NCBI GenBank assembly: GCA_945861155.1
Contig: CAMATN010000019.1
Location: 1-51,940, forward strand
Length of the DNA stretch: 51,940 bases
DNA from: Rhizobium sp. Q54
GTDB lineage: Bacteria > Pseudomonadota > Alphaproteobacteria > ATCC43930 > CGMCC-115725
Direction of reading: 5' to 3'
In this document: positions 1 to 51,940 of the stretch, piece after piece
Layout: every line of letters begins with the position of its first letter
How positions within the stretch are numbered: the stretch's first letter is position 1
Position numbers and translations under genes: made by a program
Notes under the pieces: model-generated
Database searches by the model: none
What the model was told of the DNA's origin: nothing
Seen by the model: only the letters and a program-made list of their open reading frames with translations

Positions 1-94
1 CTCCTCAGGATGAGGGTATGTTATTGATGGCATTAAGAAAGAACCTCATCCTGAGGAGCCCGCATAGCGGGCGTCTCGAAGGACGCACGGCGCT
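1..94. repeat. Partial copy of the 185-bp MITE-like repeat (right part)
   Basis: Positions 1-15 and 44-58 are inverted copies (CTCCTCAGGATGAGG and its complement) around a short AT-richer loop. Positions 44-94 then match the right arm of the complete element at 44455-44639, with a few differences. The match stops at 94, so the outer inverted end is missing here. The copy ends 25 bp from the stop of the SDR gene. Confidence 0.85.
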
Positions 95-118
95 GATCCA
101 GCCGAACGCCGATACCGG

Positions 119-5331: not shown

Positions 5332-8094
5332 TCATCTCGGGCAGGGAGGTCCGCCTGGAAAGCCGCAAGACTGCGCCCGTTGCTGACGAGCGGCGGCTTC
5401 GGCGGCGGCGCGCTGCTGCTGTGCCTGTTGGGCGGCCTGCTGACGAGCGGCGGCTTCGGCGGCGGCGCGCTGCTGCTGTGCCTGTTGGGCGGCGCGCTGT
5501 TGTTGGGCTTGTTGGGCGGCGGCCTGCTGGCGGGCGGCGGCTTCGGCGGCGCGCTGTTGTTGGGCTTGTTGGGCGGCGGCCTGCTGGCGAGCGGCGGCTT
5601 CGGCGGCGCGCTGTTGTTGAGCCTGTTGGGCGGCGGCCTGCTGGCGAGCGGCGGCATCGGCTGCAGCGCGCTGCTGCTGTGCCTGTTGGGTGGCGGCCTG
5701 CTGGCGAGCGGCGGCATCCGCTCCAGCGCGCTGTTCGGCCTGCTGACGTGCGACGGCGTCGCCTGTTTCGCGCTGCTTCGCCTGATCGCGCAACCCGCGC
5801 TGCGCCTGGTCCGGCGGGACAGTTGCGCCGGGTTGTGCCGTTGGCGGCACGATCCGGGCGGGGGGCGACGACGGCAACGCCGCGGATGGCGCCGGTTGCG
5901 GGGCTGTTTGCGAGGTCGGGAGCGGCGCGGGTCCGATGTTCCGGGGCGGCGACGCGGTTTGTTCGACCGGCGGTGTGCTCCGGTTGTCGCGGCGCGGCGC
6001 CGCCAGATCGGTAAAGTCGGGCCGCCCGGCCGGATGCCCGGGATTGGGCCTCGGTGTGGCGGTCTGGGCCGGAGGCTGCGCGCCGGGTCGGATCGTCGGC
6101 AACCCAGGAGGCGCGCCGGCCGCGCCGGTTTGAGGTGGGGGCTGGGGTGTCGGCTGCGAGGTCGCCGACTGCTGCGCTGGCGGTTGCGGGGTCGCCGATT
6201 GCTGGGGCGGCTGGCCCGGCCGGCGTGGGCCATCGCGCTGTGGCTCCAGCCGCGAGAAATCGGGCGGCCCCGAAGGACGCCCCTGCGCGGTCGCCGGCGG
6301 GTTCGCCTGCGCGGGCGGGGACGGCACTCCGGTGGGGGTCGCCGAGGCGGCAGGGGCAGGTAATGCAGGCGCGGGCGTCGCGGATGCCGGCGGTGCGGGC
6401 TGCGCGCCCGGCCGGATCGGTTGGGTTCCGGCGGTCGGCAGAGGCGCCCTCTGCTGTGCCCCCAGAGGCGCCCCCTGCGGCGGTGAATGCGGCGCCGCCG
6501 CTGGCGGGGCGGGCTGCGCCGCCGCGGGCGGGTTGCCCTGTGGCGCGGCTGGAACGGGTTGCGGCGGGTTCCGGCCGGCATGTCCGACGCGCGGCGCCGG
6601 ATCGAGCCCCGCAAAATTCGGCCGAGCCGGGAGATTCGGCCGCGCCGGGACATTCGGTTGGACTTGCGGTCCGGCCGTGGGTGGGGTCGCCGTCACCGAC
6701 TGATTGCGTTCGCCTCGTGCGAACGGCCTCGGCGGCTCGGGCCGTGACCCCTGCTGCGCCGGAATGGTTGCGACTGTGGCTGCGGTTGGCGGCGCGATCG
6801 CCGGCGGCGGCGCCACGATGACCGTGGTCTGCTGCAGCACCGTGACCGGGATCGGGACCACCGCCGGCGCGACGCGCCCCGACGTGACCACCGTTTGGGT
6901 CGGCACCACGGTCGCGGCGCCGCGGTTCAGGAATGGCTGATTGACGATTTGCGGCGGCGGCTCCGCCGCTGGCGGCCGGATCAGCATGGCCGTCGTGACC
7001 GTGTTGATCCGAGTCAGATTGACGCTGGTGATGTTGATCCGGCGGAAATAGGTTGGGTCGCTGCTGTAAGACGGCCAATAGAGTTCGCCCGGCGCCAACG
7101 GGAACCAGCCGACCCGCGGTTCGACCGGCGGCCCTTCGATCGCCGGTGGCGGGATGAAGGCAACAAGCGCCGGCGCATAGACGGGTTCGGTCACAAACTC
7201 GCCCGGGGCCCACCCCCAGCGGTTGTCTACCCGCGCCCAGCGGCCGTAATGCGACGGCGCGAAACCCCACGGCTGGTCGTCGACCCAATTCCAACCCCAG
7301 GGATCGACCCAGGCCCAATTACCTTCGCGATATGGCGCCCATTTGGCCGGCAGCGATTTGGGGAACCACACCGCGCCGTGATCGCGGATCGTGACCCACT
7401 CGCCATAATCGTCGAGCTCCTCGAACCCGGTCATCCCGGGCAACACGCGCCGCGACCGCGCTACGCGGTCATCGCGGTAATCGTGGGCGCGGCACCAGCG
7501 GACGAACGCGTCGGGCGCGGCGCGCTCGACCACGGCGGCGAGCTGATCGGCGCCGCTGACGACCAATGTGTCCCCGGCCTTGACCACCATGTCGATGCCG
7601 CCGCCGACAAAGCGGGCGCTGCCCTCAAACACCATGATGCGGGTTGGCTGGCCCGCGCCGCCGCCGTCGATGTCGTAGATCCCGGCCTGCAACAGCCACA
7701 CGCCGCCGCGCGCGATGTCGATCTGAACGGTCTCGTCCTTGCGCCACGTCGCGCGGCGCAGGTGCAGGTCGATACGTCCTTGAGTGAGCGCGATCTGCAT
7801 GACCTTGTCGCGCAGATCGGCGACATTCAGCTGGGTATCGCTCGACAGATTGACCGAGTTGGCGCCGATGCGGAGTTGGGCGCGCGATTGCGGATCGGTC
7901 GCGAACCAGCCGCCGACGGCGACCGGCAGGTTGACCGCGGCGTTCGACCATGCCGTATCGCCCGATCCGAAATAGGCGAGTATCCCGGAGACCAGGCTGA
8001 CGCGTCCGACACGGGCGGGCGGATCAGTCGCCGCGAACGCCGGGATCGCAATTAGGAGAGCCAATGCTATCAAGCATTTCGAGATAATGCGCAT
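5332..8094 (-). CDS. FecR/DUF6600-like secreted protein with Gln/Ala repeat tail
   Basis: A 920-residue exported protein. Signal peptide MRIISKCLIALALLIAIPA; residues ~25-170 form a FecR-like beta domain (VGRVSLVSGILAYF ... GRIDLHLR ... GVWLLQAGIYDI); residues ~200-330 carry the Trp-rich DUF6600 pattern (EWVTIRDHGAVWFP, WAWVDPWGWNWVDD, GWFPLAPGELYWP). A long Pro/Ala/Gln region follows, ending in five copies of a 19-residue unit rich in QQAQQQRAA and then SCGFPGGPPCPR. ATG at 8094 places the signal peptide correctly. Such proteins are probably periplasmic or surface-exposed; function unknown. Another frame stays open for 145 bp beyond the stop with GC-rich third positions but has no start. Confidence 0.8.
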   Translation of the reverse strand: MRIISKCLIALALLIAIPAFAATDPPARVGRVSLVSGILAYFGSGDTAWSNAAVNLPVAVGGWFATDPQSRAQLRIGANSVNLSSDTQLNVADLRDKVMQIALTQGRIDLHLRRATWRKDETVQIDIARGGVWLLQAGIYDIDGGGAGQPTRIMVFEGSARFVGGGIDMVVKAGDTLVVSGADQLAAVVERAAPDAFVRWCRAHDYRDDRVARSRRVLPGMTGFEELDDYGEWVTIRDHGAVWFPKSLPAKWAPYREGNWAWVDPWGWNWVDDQPWGFAPSHYGRWARVDNRWGWAPGEFVTEPVYAPALVAFIPPPAIEGPPVEPRVGWFPLAPGELYWPSYSSDPTYFRRINITSVNLTRINTVTTAMLIRPPAAEPPPQIVNQPFLNRGAATVVPTQTVVTSGRVAPAVVPIPVTVLQQTTVIVAPPPAIAPPTAATVATIPAQQGSRPEPPRPFARGERNQSVTATPPTAGPQVQPNVPARPNLPARPNFAGLDPAPRVGHAGRNPPQPVPAAPQGNPPAAAQPAPPAAAPHSPPQGAPLGAQQRAPLPTAGTQPIRPGAQPAPPASATPAPALPAPAASATPTGVPSPPAQANPPATAQGRPSGPPDFSRLEPQRDGPRRPGQPPQQSATPQPPAQQSATSQPTPQPPPQTGAAGAPPGLPTIRPGAQPPAQTATPRPNPGHPAGRPDFTDLAAPRRDNRSTPPVEQTASPPRNIGPAPLPTSQTAPQPAPSAALPSSPPARIVPPTAQPGATVPPDQAQRGLRDQAKQRETGDAVARQQAEQRAGADAAARQQAATQQAQQQRAAADAAARQQAAAQQAQQQRAAEAAARQQAAAQQAQQQRAAEAAARQQAAAQQAQQQRAAQQAQQQRAAAEAAARQQAAQQAQQQRAAAEAAARQQRAQSCGFPGGPPCPR
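5380..5712. repeat. 57-bp tandem repeats coding the Gln/Ala tail
   Basis: About five imperfect copies of a 57-bp unit encode the 19-residue motif AARQQAAAQQAQQQRAAEA on the minus strand; one copy carries an internal partial duplication. Copy number is likely to vary between strains by slippage or recombination. Confidence 0.85.
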
Positions 8095-13226: not shown

Positions 13227-14504
13227 ATGCCGGTCGTTGACATCATCACCTTCGGCTGCCGCCTCAATGCGTTCGAAAGCGACATCATCCGCCGCGCGGC
13301 CGACAGCGCCGGGCTCGGCGACGCGGTCATCGTCAACACCTGCGCGGTGACCGCCGAGGCCGAGCGCCAGGCGCGCCAGGCGATCCGGCGGGCGCGGCGC
13401 GAGCGCCCCGGCGCCCGGATCATCGTCACCGGCTGCGCCGCGACCCTGGCGCCCGAGCGCTATGCCGCGCTCGACGGGGTCGACCTCGTGCTCGACAATG
13501 ACGCGAAGCTCAGGGTCGAGAGCTATGTGACGGAAACCCCCACCCCAACCCTCCCCCGCCTGCGGGGGAGGGAGGGGCCCGCGCCGCAGGCGTGGGAGGG
13601 TGGGGGCTTACCGGGTGAGGGTGCCCGTCCCCGCGCGCGCGCCTATTTGCAGGTACAGCAGGGCTGCGACCATCGCTGTACGTTCTGCATCATTCCCTAT
13701 GCGCGGGGGCCGAGCCGCTCGGTCCCGCTCGCCGCGATCGTCGACGACGCGCGGCGTCTCGTCGTGAGCGGGGTTCGCGAGATCGTGCTGACCGGGGTCG
13801 ATTTGACCGCCTATGGCGCCGATTTGCCGGAGCGCCCGAGCCTTGGCCGGATGGCGCGCCATCTGCTCGCCGCCGTGCCCGAGTTGAGGCGCCTGCGACT
13901 CTCCTCGCTCGATCCGAGCGAGATCGACGAGCCTCTTTGGCAGCTCCTCGGCGATGACCCGCGGCTGATGCCGCATCTGCATTTGTCGCTGCAGGCCGGC
14001 GACGATTTGATCCTGAAGCGCATGAAGCGCCGGCACAGCCGCGCCCAGGCGATCGCGGCGGTGCGGCGGGCCCGTGCAACGCGCCCCGAGATCGCAATCG
14101 GCGCCGACCTGATCGCCGGTTTTCCGACCGAGACCGAGGAAATGTTTCAGCATAGCCTCAATCTGGTTGGCGAATGCGGCATCGCCTTCCTGCACGTATT
14201 TCCGTACAGCCCGCGTCCCGGCACCCCGGCGGCGCGGATGCCGCAGCTCGACCCGGCGCTGGTGCGCGAGCGCGCCGCCCGGTTGCGCGCCGCCGGCGCG
14301 GCGGCGCTCGAAGCCGAGCTGAGCCGCCGGCTCGGCAGCGAGAGCGATGTCCTGGTCGAAGGCTCCGGCAAGGGCCGGGCCGATTGCTATGCCGGGGTGC
14401 GCTTTGAGGATGCGGCGGAGATCGGGGCGGCGCAGATCGGGTCGGTGCGGCGGATGCGCTTTGTCGCCGTCGGCTTCCCCAACCTGATCGGAGTGGCGGC
14501 ATGA
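13227..14504 (+). CDS. mtaB: tRNA t6A37 methylthiotransferase MtaB, with in-frame repeat insertion
   Basis: A 425-residue radical-SAM enzyme that adds a methylthio group to t6A37 of tRNA. The N-terminal MTTase domain carries Cys11 (FGCRLNAFE), Cys39 (NTCAVT) and Cys70 (VTGCAA) for one iron-sulfur cluster; the radical-SAM cluster uses Cys147, 151 and 154 (CDHRCTFCIIPYARG). Residues ~104-128 (TPTPTLPRLRGREGP onward) are encoded by a GC-rich palindromic repeat inserted in frame in the linker between the two domains, so the enzyme may still fold. Overlaps ftsY by 4 nt. Confidence 0.93.
   Translation: MPVVDIITFGCRLNAFESDIIRRAADSAGLGDAVIVNTCAVTAEAERQARQAIRRARRERPGARIIVTGCAATLAPERYAALDGVDLVLDNDAKLRVESYVTETPTPTLPRLRGREGPAPQAWEGGGLPGEGARPRARAYLQVQQGCDHRCTFCIIPYARGPSRSVPLAAIVDDARRLVVSGVREIVLTGVDLTAYGADLPERPSLGRMARHLLAAVPELRRLRLSSLDPSEIDEPLWQLLGDDPRLMPHLHLSLQAGDDLILKRMKRRHSRAQAIAAVRRARATRPEIAIGADLIAGFPTETEEMFQHSLNLVGECGIAFLHVFPYSPRPGTPAARMPQLDPALVRERAARLRAAGAAALEAELSRRLGSESDVLVEGSGKGRADCYAGVRFEDAAEIGAAQIGSVRRMRFVAVGFPNLIGVAA
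13537..13610. repeat. GC-rich palindromic repeat inside mtaB
   Basis: The segment reads CCCCCACCCCAACCCTCCCC, a hairpin CCCTCCCCCGC/GCGGGGGAGGG, then GGAGGGGCCC and GTGGGAGGGTGGGGGCTTA. The left part matches the complement of 22454-22494 and the right part the complement of 22367-22430, so it belongs to the same family as those intergenic copies. Confidence 0.88.
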
Positions 14505-22323: not shown

Positions 22324-22366
22324 CCGAAAATCCTTTGAAGCCGCTCTCGTTGCGTTGCCGCGCCCG

Positions 22367-22430
22367 TAAGCCCCCACCCTCCCACGGCGTCGCCGTGGGC
22401 CCCTCCCTCCCCCGCTTGCGGGGGAGGGCT
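22367..22430. repeat. GC-rich palindromic repeat, copy 1
   Basis: Starts TAAGCCCCCACCCTCCCAC and ends CCCCTCCCTCCCCCGC-TT-GCGGGGGAGGG. Its complement matches the right two-thirds of the mtaB insertion. Lies just upstream of the luciferase-like gene start. Confidence 0.88.
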
Positions 22431-22453
22431 TTCAGAGCAACGGCCCCAGCGAT

Positions 22454-22494
22454 CTCCCTCCCCCGCAAGCGGGGGAGGGTTGGGGTGGGGGTTT
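22454..22494. repeat. GC-rich palindromic repeat, copy 2 (short)
   Basis: CTCCCTCCCCCGC-AA-GCGGGGGAGGG followed by TTGGGGTGGGGGTTT. Its complement matches the left part of the mtaB insertion. It sits 23 bp from copy 1 in opposite arrangement, together filling most of the gap between the VOC and luciferase-like genes. Confidence 0.88.
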
Positions 22495-38978: not shown

Positions 38979-39001
38979 TCTTCGATGGCCACAAAAACTT
39001 T

Positions 39002-39081
39002 GTCGTTCCGGCGAAAGCCGGGACCCATCGTGCAACCAACTCCCAAGCTGACCAATGGGTCCCGGCTTTCGCCGGGACGAC
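39002..39081. repeat. Palindromic repeat between atpA and atpG
   Basis: GTCGTTCCGGCGAAAGCCGG and the following GACCCA (39002-39028) pair with TGGGTCCCGGCTTTCGCCGG and following GACGAC (39056-39081) with about one mismatch, forming a hairpin of ~25 bp with a 27-nt loop. It lies inside the operon, 13 bp before the atpG start. Confidence 0.9.
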
Positions 39082-39094
39082 AAGGTAGCGAGTC

Positions 39095-39990: not shown

Positions 39991-41538
<1,548 letters not shown>

Positions 41539-41998: not shown

Positions 41999-42086
41999 GT
42001 CATTGCGAGGAGCCGCAGGGCGACGAAGCAATCTCGAAGGGCAGAGCTCGATCGGCGCGAGATTGCTTTGCGTCGCTCGCAATGAC
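41999..42086. repeat. Second copy of the GTCATTGCGAG palindromic repeat
   Basis: Begins GTCATTGCGAGGAGCCGCAG and ends CTCGCAATGAC; closely similar to 39991-40077. It follows atpC by 13 bp and may terminate the operon transcript. Confidence 0.92.
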
Positions 42087-42142
42087 ATCAGGGTGTCTGG
42101 TGTACTAAGACAGATCGGTTACGATCTGCCGGAGGGGGCGGC

Positions 42143-43492: not shown

Positions 43493-44383
43493 TCAGGCCG
43501 CCTCGTCGAGGGTCGAGCCGATATCGAGCGTCGTCGCGCGGCGCAGGTCGCGTGGCTGCGATTCGTCGTGTGGCCGGCCGCGATGCATCGTGTCGCGATT
43601 GTCCCAGATCACGAGGTCGCCGATCCGCCAATTGTGGCTATAGACGAACTCGCGCCGGGTCGCGTGCTCGCCCAGATCGCTGAGCAGCAACCGTCCTTCG
43701 GGGATCGGCCAGCCGACGATGTGCGAGGCATGCGCCGACAGATACAGCCCCTTGCGCCCCGAGCCCGGATGCCGGCGCACCAGGCGCTGGCGCGATGGCG
43801 GGTATTGCTCGCGCTCGCCCGGCGGAAACTCGGTGAAGCCGATCTGGCCGCGCGACCAGAACACGTCATGCTCGACGACGAGGTCGTCGACGACGGCCTT
43901 CTGGGCATCGCTCAGCGAGTCGTAGGCGGCGCGCATATCGGCGAACTCGGTCTCGCCGGCGCCGAACGGCGAGGCCGGCGGCACCGTCACCGCGAACAGC
44001 ATGCCGAGCACGACCGGCACCGGCATATACGAGGCATCGGTATGCCACAGCCGGTTGCCGAGGCTGTCGAGGCGCCTCCTGTCGTCGCGGGCGCGGACCC
44101 GGTTGTCTTCGTCGAGGTTCGAGATGTCGCCGATCTCGGGGAATTCGAGGCGGCGCCGCCCCGGCCGAGCCGCGGAGCGGCCGATTTCGAGTTCGCCAAA
44201 GCGATAGGCGAAACGGCGCAGCTCTTCGTCGCTGAGCCGCTGATCGTGAAACACGAGGACGGCGTGAGCGTCGATCGCCTGCCAGATCGCCTGGACGCCC
44301 GCGGCATCGATCGGCTCGCGCAGATCGAGACCGCCGATTTCGGCGCCGATATGCGGGTGAAGGGACGTAACGGTCATGGCCAT
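43493..44383 (-). CDS. TauD/TfdA family 2-oxoglutarate dioxygenase
   Basis: A 296-residue Fe(II)/2-oxoglutarate oxygenase. GAEIGGLDLREPI at the N-terminus, the metal facial triad HTD (LWHTDASYMPVP) with the distal His in MHRGRPHD, and the 2-oxoglutarate Arg in DLRRATTLD are visible. The family cleaves taurine, 2,4-D or related compounds; specificity unknown. Start at 44383 has GGGAGAG upstream; the frame is open further upstream and even through the mobile repeat at 44455-44639. Confidence 0.88.
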   Translation of the reverse strand: MAMTVTSLHPHIGAEIGGLDLREPIDAAGVQAIWQAIDAHAVLVFHDQRLSDEELRRFAYRFGELEIGRSAARPGRRRLEFPEIGDISNLDEDNRVRARDDRRRLDSLGNRLWHTDASYMPVPVVLGMLFAVTVPPASPFGAGETEFADMRAAYDSLSDAQKAVVDDLVVEHDVFWSRGQIGFTEFPPGEREQYPPSRQRLVRRHPGSGRKGLYLSAHASHIVGWPIPEGRLLLSDLGEHATRREFVYSHNWRIGDLVIWDNRDTMHRGRPHDESQPRDLRRATTLDIGSTLDEAA

Positions 44384-44454
44384 GCAGCGCTCTCCCAGCC
44401 CGTCATGCCCGGAAGAGGCCAGCATCGGGGCGCGCGCTGCCTCTGTCAATCGAG

Positions 44455-44639
44455 GGTGGTGTCTCAGTTTGAATTGCATCGGCGTTGTGCGTCCTTCGAG
44501 ACGGCCCTTCGGGCGCTCCTCAGGATGAGGCGTAAGTATATGATGGCATAAGGAAAAAACCTCATCCTGAGGAGCTCGCGAAGCGGGCGTCTCGAAGGAC
44601 GCACGGCGCTTCTCCCCCAAGCGAAACTGAGACACCACC
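44455..44639. mobile_element. MITE-like 185-bp element with inverted ends and 8-bp target duplication
   Basis: Both ends read GGTGGTGTCTCAGTTT inwards (perfect 16-bp inverted ends). After an imperfect stretch the arms pair again (GTGCGTCCTTCGAGACG and CTCCTCAGGATGAGG), so the whole element can fold into a long hairpin with a short loop. It is flanked by CAATCGAG on both sides (44447-44454 and 44640-44647), the mark of an 8-bp target duplication. No transposase is encoded, so movement must have been in trans. Partial copies lie at 1-94 and 51872-51940. Confidence 0.88.
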
Positions 44640-44777
44640 CAATCGAGCCACAACCTCGTTGCTGCAGGCTCGGCTACACCGACCCGACTGGCGCGGGAAA
44701 CGCCGTACGACGCGATTCGAAGGCCGCGACCTGATGAGCTATGCTGTTCCTCGAACCCTCAACATTCGACGTGCCGG

Positions 44778-45521
44778 TTGGTGTGGTCCTTCGCTCTGTT
44801 GCTTCTCGCATTGTTCGTGATCCCCGTACTGGTGAGCGGTTGTCTGCCGGATCCGCGCGGCGGGGTGCCTTGGTATGAAGCACGCCGCGACCCGACCGGG
44901 CTTGCTCCCGACCCGACGGCGACCCCGGAGGCCGTGATCCAGGTGTTTGCGGCTCGCGCCGTCTCATGGCGCGGGGTGTTCGCGGTCCATTCCTGGATTG
45001 CGGTCAAGCCAACCGGCGCGCAGCGTTACACAAGATATGAGGTGGTCGGGTTTGGCGTCGCAAATGGCGCCCCGGCGGTGCGCGTCGACCGGATGGGGCC
45101 TGACAATTACTGGTTCGGCGCCCGGCCGCGGATCGTGCTCGACCGGCGCGGCGCCGGGGTGGATGCGATGATCGACAAGATTCGCACTGCCGTCGCCACC
45201 TATCCCTACCCGCATGAGTACCGTGCCTGGCCCGGTCCCAACAGCAACACGTTCACCGCATACATTGCGCGCCAAGTGCCCGAACTCGGCCTCGACCTGC
45301 CCTCGAACGCGATCGGGAAGGATTTCCTGCCGGGAGGCGCAGTGTTTGCCCCAGCGCCCAGCGGGACCGGGTTTCAGATTTCGGTTTACGGCCTCGCCGG
45401 CATCCTGATCGCGGCCGACGAGGGAATTGAGTTGAATCTGCTGGGCCTCAACATCGGTTTTGACATTGCCGGACCGGCCCTGAAACTGCCCGCGATCGGC
45501 AGGCTGGGACGCGACCGCTGA
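44778..45521 (+). CDS. DUF3750 family lipoprotein-like protein
   Basis: A 247-residue protein with a signal anchor/lipobox (LLLALFVIPVLVSGC, Cys22) and a DUF3750 domain: EAVIQVFAARAVSWRGVFAVHSWIAVK, RYTRYEVVGFGV and YPHEYRAWPGPNSNTFTAYI. The family is envelope-associated, function unknown. No ATG is available; TTG at 44778 or GTG at 44781 are the possible starts. The gene begins 139 bp from the MITE. Confidence 0.8.
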   Translation: MVWSFALLLLALFVIPVLVSGCLPDPRGGVPWYEARRDPTGLAPDPTATPEAVIQVFAARAVSWRGVFAVHSWIAVKPTGAQRYTRYEVVGFGVANGAPAVRVDRMGPDNYWFGARPRIVLDRRGAGVDAMIDKIRTAVATYPYPHEYRAWPGPNSNTFTAYIARQVPELGLDLPSNAIGKDFLPGGAVFAPAPSGTGFQISVYGLAGILIAADEGIELNLLGLNIGFDIAGPALKLPAIGRLGRDR

Positions 45522-51812: not shown

Positions 51813-51871
51813 GCGGCTGGATTGGCGCGCGACGCGGCGCGGTTGAAACCGACCGCCGCGCCCCGCTATCC

Positions 51872-51940
51872 GGTGGTGTCTCAGTTTGAATTGCATCGGC
51901 GTTGTGCGTCCTTCGAGACGGCCCTTCGGGCGCTCCTCAG
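51872..51940. repeat. Left part of the MITE-like repeat, cut by the window end
   Basis: Sixty-nine bases starting GGTGGTGTCTCAGTTTGAAT are identical to 44455-44523, the left arm of the complete element. The window stops inside it. Confidence 0.93.

Follow-up and report, generated by a model that had tools for sequence, protein, structure and literature searches.

Contig C19, which in its entirety (51,940 nucleotides) is the window analyzed here and belongs to an assembly of 4.88 Mb in 226 contigs, carries a 185-bp element that is very probably a MITE of an alphaproteobacterial IS1-type clade, mobilized in trans, generating an 8-bp target duplication and containing a captured palindrome as its core. 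This assignment draws on the ends and flanks of the copies of the element in the source genome, on an empty insertion site in related genomes, on the distribution of the core repeat, and on the transposons that are bounded by the same ends in other Alphaproteobacteria.

Copies of the MITE in the window and in the genome

The complete MITE occupies positions 44455-44639 (forward strand) and has perfect inverted ends of 16 bp, the left one, GGTGGTGTCTCAGTTT, at 44455-44470 (forward strand) and its partner at 44624-44639 (reverse strand). It is located between two exact 8-bp duplications, CAATCGAG, that can be read directly from the sequence at 44447-44454 and 44640-44647. These coordinates, the length of the element, its inverted ends and the duplication are exactly as described in the sequence-only reading, which had also classified the element as non-autonomous; indeed, the 185 bp encode no transposase and share their ends with transposase-coding elements. 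The element is intergenic, flanked by a gene for a TauD/TfdA-type dioxygenase (43493-44383, reverse strand) and a DUF3750 gene (44778-45521, forward strand). Its previously noticed self-complementarity is far beyond chance (fold energy of -133.6 kcal/mol; mean of the shuffled sequences -65.4 kcal/mol, z -16.9) and is mostly contributed by an unrelated palindromic repeat that the ends enclose.

The window contains three matches to the 16-mer of the end (with at most 3 mismatches), compared to 0.08 expected, and none of 100 shuffles reached this number. The claim that the family has at least three copies in the window holds for two of them, the complete MITE and a second copy at 51872-51940 (forward strand), of which the first 69 bp, identical to 44455-44523, precede the contig end that truncates it. 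The left flank of this second copy, CGCTATCC, is at 51864-51871. The remaining candidate, at 1-100 (forward strand), matches the internal palindrome only and is a partial core repeat lacking IS ends, not a MITE copy. A search of the window against Rfam matched no family. Other families of dispersed palindromic repeats, which are not related to the MITE, are present in the window at 40010-40078 and 42019-42087, at 13534-13614 and 22363-22494, and also at 38997-39086, and the GC-rich region 5335-5760 contains tandem repeats with a 57-base spacing and sub-steps of 27/30 bases.

A genome-wide search with the end sequence found 31 ends, and 19 two-ended elements could be delimited. When the flanks of all copies were tabulated, as the sequence-only reading had proposed, exact 8-bp duplications were found in six of these 19 elements (CAATCGAG, CTCCGGCT, CGCTCATC, GATTCGCG, GCGCGTTG and GAGCCGTC), along with decayed ones: another of the 19 shows an 8-bp duplication with one mismatch, and one further copy has the 7-bp duplication AAAACAG, which appears to be the 8-bp duplication CAAAACAG minus one base. 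None of the 19 has an exact duplication at 9 bp. In the control, which consisted of the 342 mismatched pairs of left and right flanks of the same 19 elements, there was no exact match and no match with fewer than two mismatches. In roughly half of the two-ended copies, a duplication is not recognizable, probably due to decay, recombination between copies or misassembly. The latter two possibilities apply to the copy on contig C61 (G000:C61:14510-14692), which has no duplication of its own and whose right flank, CGCTATCC, is identical to the left flank of the truncated copy in the window. The C61 copy therefore probably joins the halves of two MITE copies, via recombination or misassembly, and would hold the other half of the copy at 51872-51940.

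Chimeric copies that contain the core number approximately 15 (181-197 bp) and form subfamilies at 94-97% identity. The window copy and those on C61 and C81 are 95-97% identical to one another, and the wave of amplification to which they belong looks the youngest.

The copy on contig C84 is placed at the boundary between the end of etfB and the start of etfA (gene names read from the sequence, without a tool). We searched for the joined flanks of this copy in 39 genomes of the family. In more than 20 relatives, the joined flanks align across the junction, in most cases without a gap there, with the target present once, and in the source genome the same flanks sit apart with an overlap of 8 bp. 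Given the empty site in the relatives and the 8-bp overlap in the source genome, the difference at this locus is an insertion rather than a deletion. Thus, the contrast between occupied and empty sites, the absence of which would have spoken against mobility according to the sequence-only reading, exists between species. An empty site for the window copy was not found because, in the relatives, its two flanking genes are on different contigs or were not found together. The element has been transposed, with duplication of 8 bp of the target; the data are compatible with copy-and-paste as well as with cut-and-paste transposition.

A resident palindrome between the ends

Positions 21 to ~160 of the element (44475-44614 of the window, forward strand) match a palindromic repeat that is present at ~110 genomic sites, most of them without IS ends; this number was derived from 150 listed matches, ~40 of which are the second strand of an already counted site. 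The consensus of the core folds into a three-branched structure, and in the 30 sequences compared, compensatory changes were detected for three pairs (columns 30/47 in 14 sequences, 113/125 in 11 and 64/99 in 2).

The core-only copies and the MITE interiors are homologous, with 84-90% identity, as would be expected if the core repeats were decayed MITEs that lost their ends and the core did not constitute an independent family. However, several core-only copies share a common sequence that continues past both MITE junctions and differs from the IS ends. Furthermore, the core repeat was found in 26 of the 39 family genomes, but the combination of ends and core only in the source genome. These observations make the derivation of the core repeats from MITEs very unlikely. 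Rather, the MITE appears to be a chimera in which two IS1-type ends surround a resident palindrome and, because the junctions are common to the copies, the ends and the palindrome probably spread jointly after the chimera had formed.

The core resembles REP/BIME repeats in that it is a REP-type palindrome with a branched fold and mostly lacks IS ends. Together with its ~110 sites and the compensatory changes, this raises the possibility that the entire element is a REP/BIME-type palindrome that owes its mobility to a RAYT (Y1) transposase, with a flanking duplication that is coincidental. Unlike the case of REP/BIME, there is no RAYT gene in the genome and the MITE ends are unrelated: a Y1_Tnp protein (PF01797) is absent from this genome, whereas five control genomes were positive, and we accordingly rejected RAYT as the source of MITE mobility. 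Moreover, exact 8-bp duplications, which RAYT-type elements are not known to produce, recur among the copies with IS ends, and the empty site also counts against this explanation for the element as a whole, which we consider highly improbable. For the core repeat alone, a RAYT-type origin may apply.

IS1-type transposons with the same ends

In related genomes, ends equal to those of the chimeric MITE bound elements of 2.2-3.0 kb with exact 8-bp duplications, most of which encode a transposase of ~306 aa. This protein matches the Pfam family DDE_Tnp_IS1 (PF03400) above the cut-off (31.5-31.9 bits vs 24.1). The score with the NCBIfam IS1 equivalog NF033558 (73.7 bits, 1.8e-20) is below the cut-off of 100, and the clade is therefore divergent and is referred to here as 'IS1-type'. 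Plasmid homologs of the transposase are annotated as 'IS1 family transposase', and the DDE triad, D79/D151/E216, is 98-100% conserved among 81 sequences. A scan of 84,980 genomes identified at least 571 relatives, the 80 best of which belong to Alphaproteobacteria or to MAGs whose records give no label beyond Proteobacteria, Pseudomonadota or bacterium. Among these 80 best loci, 70 have GGTRGTGTCTCAGTTT ends flanked by 8-bp duplications, of which 67 are exact and the others contain one mismatch, and the elements so delimited span 2122-4251 bp; when the ends were picked blind to the flanks, the 8-bp duplication was exact in 58 of 64 cases. Because GGTRGTGTCTCAGTTT ends with 8-bp duplications bound IS1-type transposases, the MITE can be assigned to the IS1-type clade and not to IS1595. 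The latter family also has 8-bp duplications and ends that start with GG, which would fit the MITE, and the genome encodes two IS1595 transposases (PF12762). Nevertheless, neither of these loci has the ends in question (the best matches have 4 mismatches and do not form a pair), so that both genes were rejected as parents, and the bounded full-length elements carry an IS1-type transposase. A MITE of an IS1595-family element is thus extremely improbable.

IS1 elements have target duplications of 8-9 bp and ends beginning with GGTRRTG, and the classical ones are 0.8-1.0 kb in size. The parent ends start with GGTRGTG, and the IS1 left end, GGTGATG..., had matches at sites with the annotation 'IS1-like element'. 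The clade resembles the single-ORF members of the IS1 family (ISfinder; PF03400) in its DDE transposase, GGTRRTG ends and 8-bp duplication. Unlike IS1, it has a single ORF of 290-310 aa without a frameshift, contains no copy near 0.8-1.0 kb among the 70 delimited elements, always includes cargo, and combines the transposase with a conserved protein of ~76 aa. The parents are an unusual, little-described IS1-type, single-ORF DDE clade that spans the Alphaproteobacteria. In the open-access literature, we found nothing relevant on the end or core sequences, on IS1-family MITEs with passengers, on the motif of the small protein or on IS1 with toxin-antitoxin cargo. No description of the parent family was found there, and the family may be novel.

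A relic of a parent is present in the source genome itself (C81:19592-21117). This 1526-bp element has both ends and the duplication GAGCCGTC; inside, it contains part of the transposase (residues 202-294, 63% identical) and remnants of the gene for the ~76-aa protein. The prediction of a parent elsewhere in the genome is borne out in that the family could be found via its ends, has the same duplication length and has a decayed member in this genome, although a search for transposases with these ends revealed only that decayed copy and no intact transposase of the clade in this assembly. Hence the present-day mobility of the MITE is putative; an intact copy could be missing from the assembly because contigs break at repeats.

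Elements with equal ends and exact duplications that lack a transposase were found at sizes of 35, 249, 753, 784, 956 and 2181 bp, which suggests that the ends suffice for mobilization. The 753-bp element is located in the source genome (G000:C69:12945-13697; L031:1001-1753) and contains small ORFs, one of which, for a small membrane protein, resembles an ORF in the C81 relic. Two others (G022:C289:1625-3805 and G019:C152:579-1534) are MIC-like cargo cassettes, the second with a single methyltransferase gene. The 35-bp element (G030:C15:2900-2934; L079:1001-1035) consists almost only of the two ends and could have arisen by extreme deletion or through the collapse of a palindrome during assembly.

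MITEs, such as MITEAba12 (PMC6382973), are short, non-coding, multi-copy elements with inverted ends and target duplications that are moved by a related IS. The window element is likewise short, multi-copy and devoid of a transposase, shares its ends with a transposase-coding element and the 8-bp duplication length with its parent, and has occupied and empty sites in the case of the C84 copy. It differs from such MITEs in deriving from an IS1-type element and in harboring an unrelated palindrome instead of internal IS sequence. As to the transposase that moves the MITE, its action in trans and the order of assembly of the chimera, we infer the following scenario. Of the transposon, the MITE retains only ~20 bp per end, with what would be a pre-existing palindromic genomic repeat between them; a full-length relative would supply the DDE transposase in trans; this enzyme would recognize GGTRGTGTCTCAGTTT at both ends; insertion at a staggered cut would yield the 8-bp duplication; and several waves of amplification would have produced at least 15 chimeric copies.

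Cargo genes and a conserved small protein

All 70 delimited elements carry cargo, which is variable and often toxin-antitoxin- or defense-like (L122-L201, e.g., L139:2252-6272). Among 127 cargo ORFs, which were picked by a longest-ORF rule so that some are spurious, Pfam detected Peptidase_M78/IrrE (14), P63C (10), AAA ATPases (7), NYN (6), SocA/Panacea (5), ClpP-like SDH protease (4), PemK (3) and Abi_2 (3), and PADLOC identified RmrA (14), RmrT (4), PD-Lambda-2_B (4), HEC-09 (3), PD-T4-5 (3) and AbiD (3). The defense roles of this cargo are putative given that a family name is no proof of a defense function. IS that carry passenger genes are known as tIS (PMC7986276). The full-length relatives of the MITE are similar to tIS in this respect, and the transposase-less relatives of 753-2181 bp are similar to MICs; unlike either, the elements have cargo in 70 of 70 cases, often of the toxin-antitoxin or defense-like type, as well as a conserved accessory gene.

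This gene is located near the left end and encodes the ~76-aa protein (MPKGPKGEKRPADVIG..., e.g., L139:2568-2798; 62 homologs aligned) in 72 of the 74 elements examined, mostly with a length of 72-97 aa; the two elements without it are transposase-less. One element of 784 bp, flanked by an exact duplication, encodes the ~76-aa protein but no transposase. The consensus, MPKGP.GEKRPADVIG.AV...IATGEIEE...AA..LG..GGKARA..LTPERR.EIA.KAA..RW, did not correspond to any Pfam or NCBIfam family, and no match was detected in 50,697 phage records. By manual count, ~19 of the 22 loci of this protein in the 39 family genomes adjoin an end or a transposase of this type. The predicted structure consists of three helices (pLDDT 85) and provides no usable global fold (pTM 0.38). 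A segment related to this protein also occurs as an N-terminal fusion in cargo proteins with a P63C domain. We consider the ~76-aa protein a candidate accessory factor of transposition. It may even be, although we stop just short of calling this probable, that the parents represent an unrecognized class of transposons, widespread in Alphaproteobacteria, that shuttle toxin-antitoxin and anti-phage genes, require or employ the ~76-aa protein as a second factor, either in transposition or in regulation, and spawn MICs as well as chimeric MITEs that capture resident repeats.

By itself, the MITE is of an ordinary kind; what is unusual is that its IS1-type ends enclose a resident palindrome, which illustrates how a repeat can be hijacked and spread by an IS. 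Its ends lead to compact transposons of 2-4 kb in which cargo is apparently the rule, including toxin-antitoxin modules and RmrA/RmrT-, PD-Lambda-2-, AbiD- and SocA-like genes. The constant ends and 8-bp duplications make the parents easy to delimit, so that GGTRGTGTCTCAGTTTGA can serve as a search handle for mining new defense genes, and the conserved ~76-aa protein offers a testable role.
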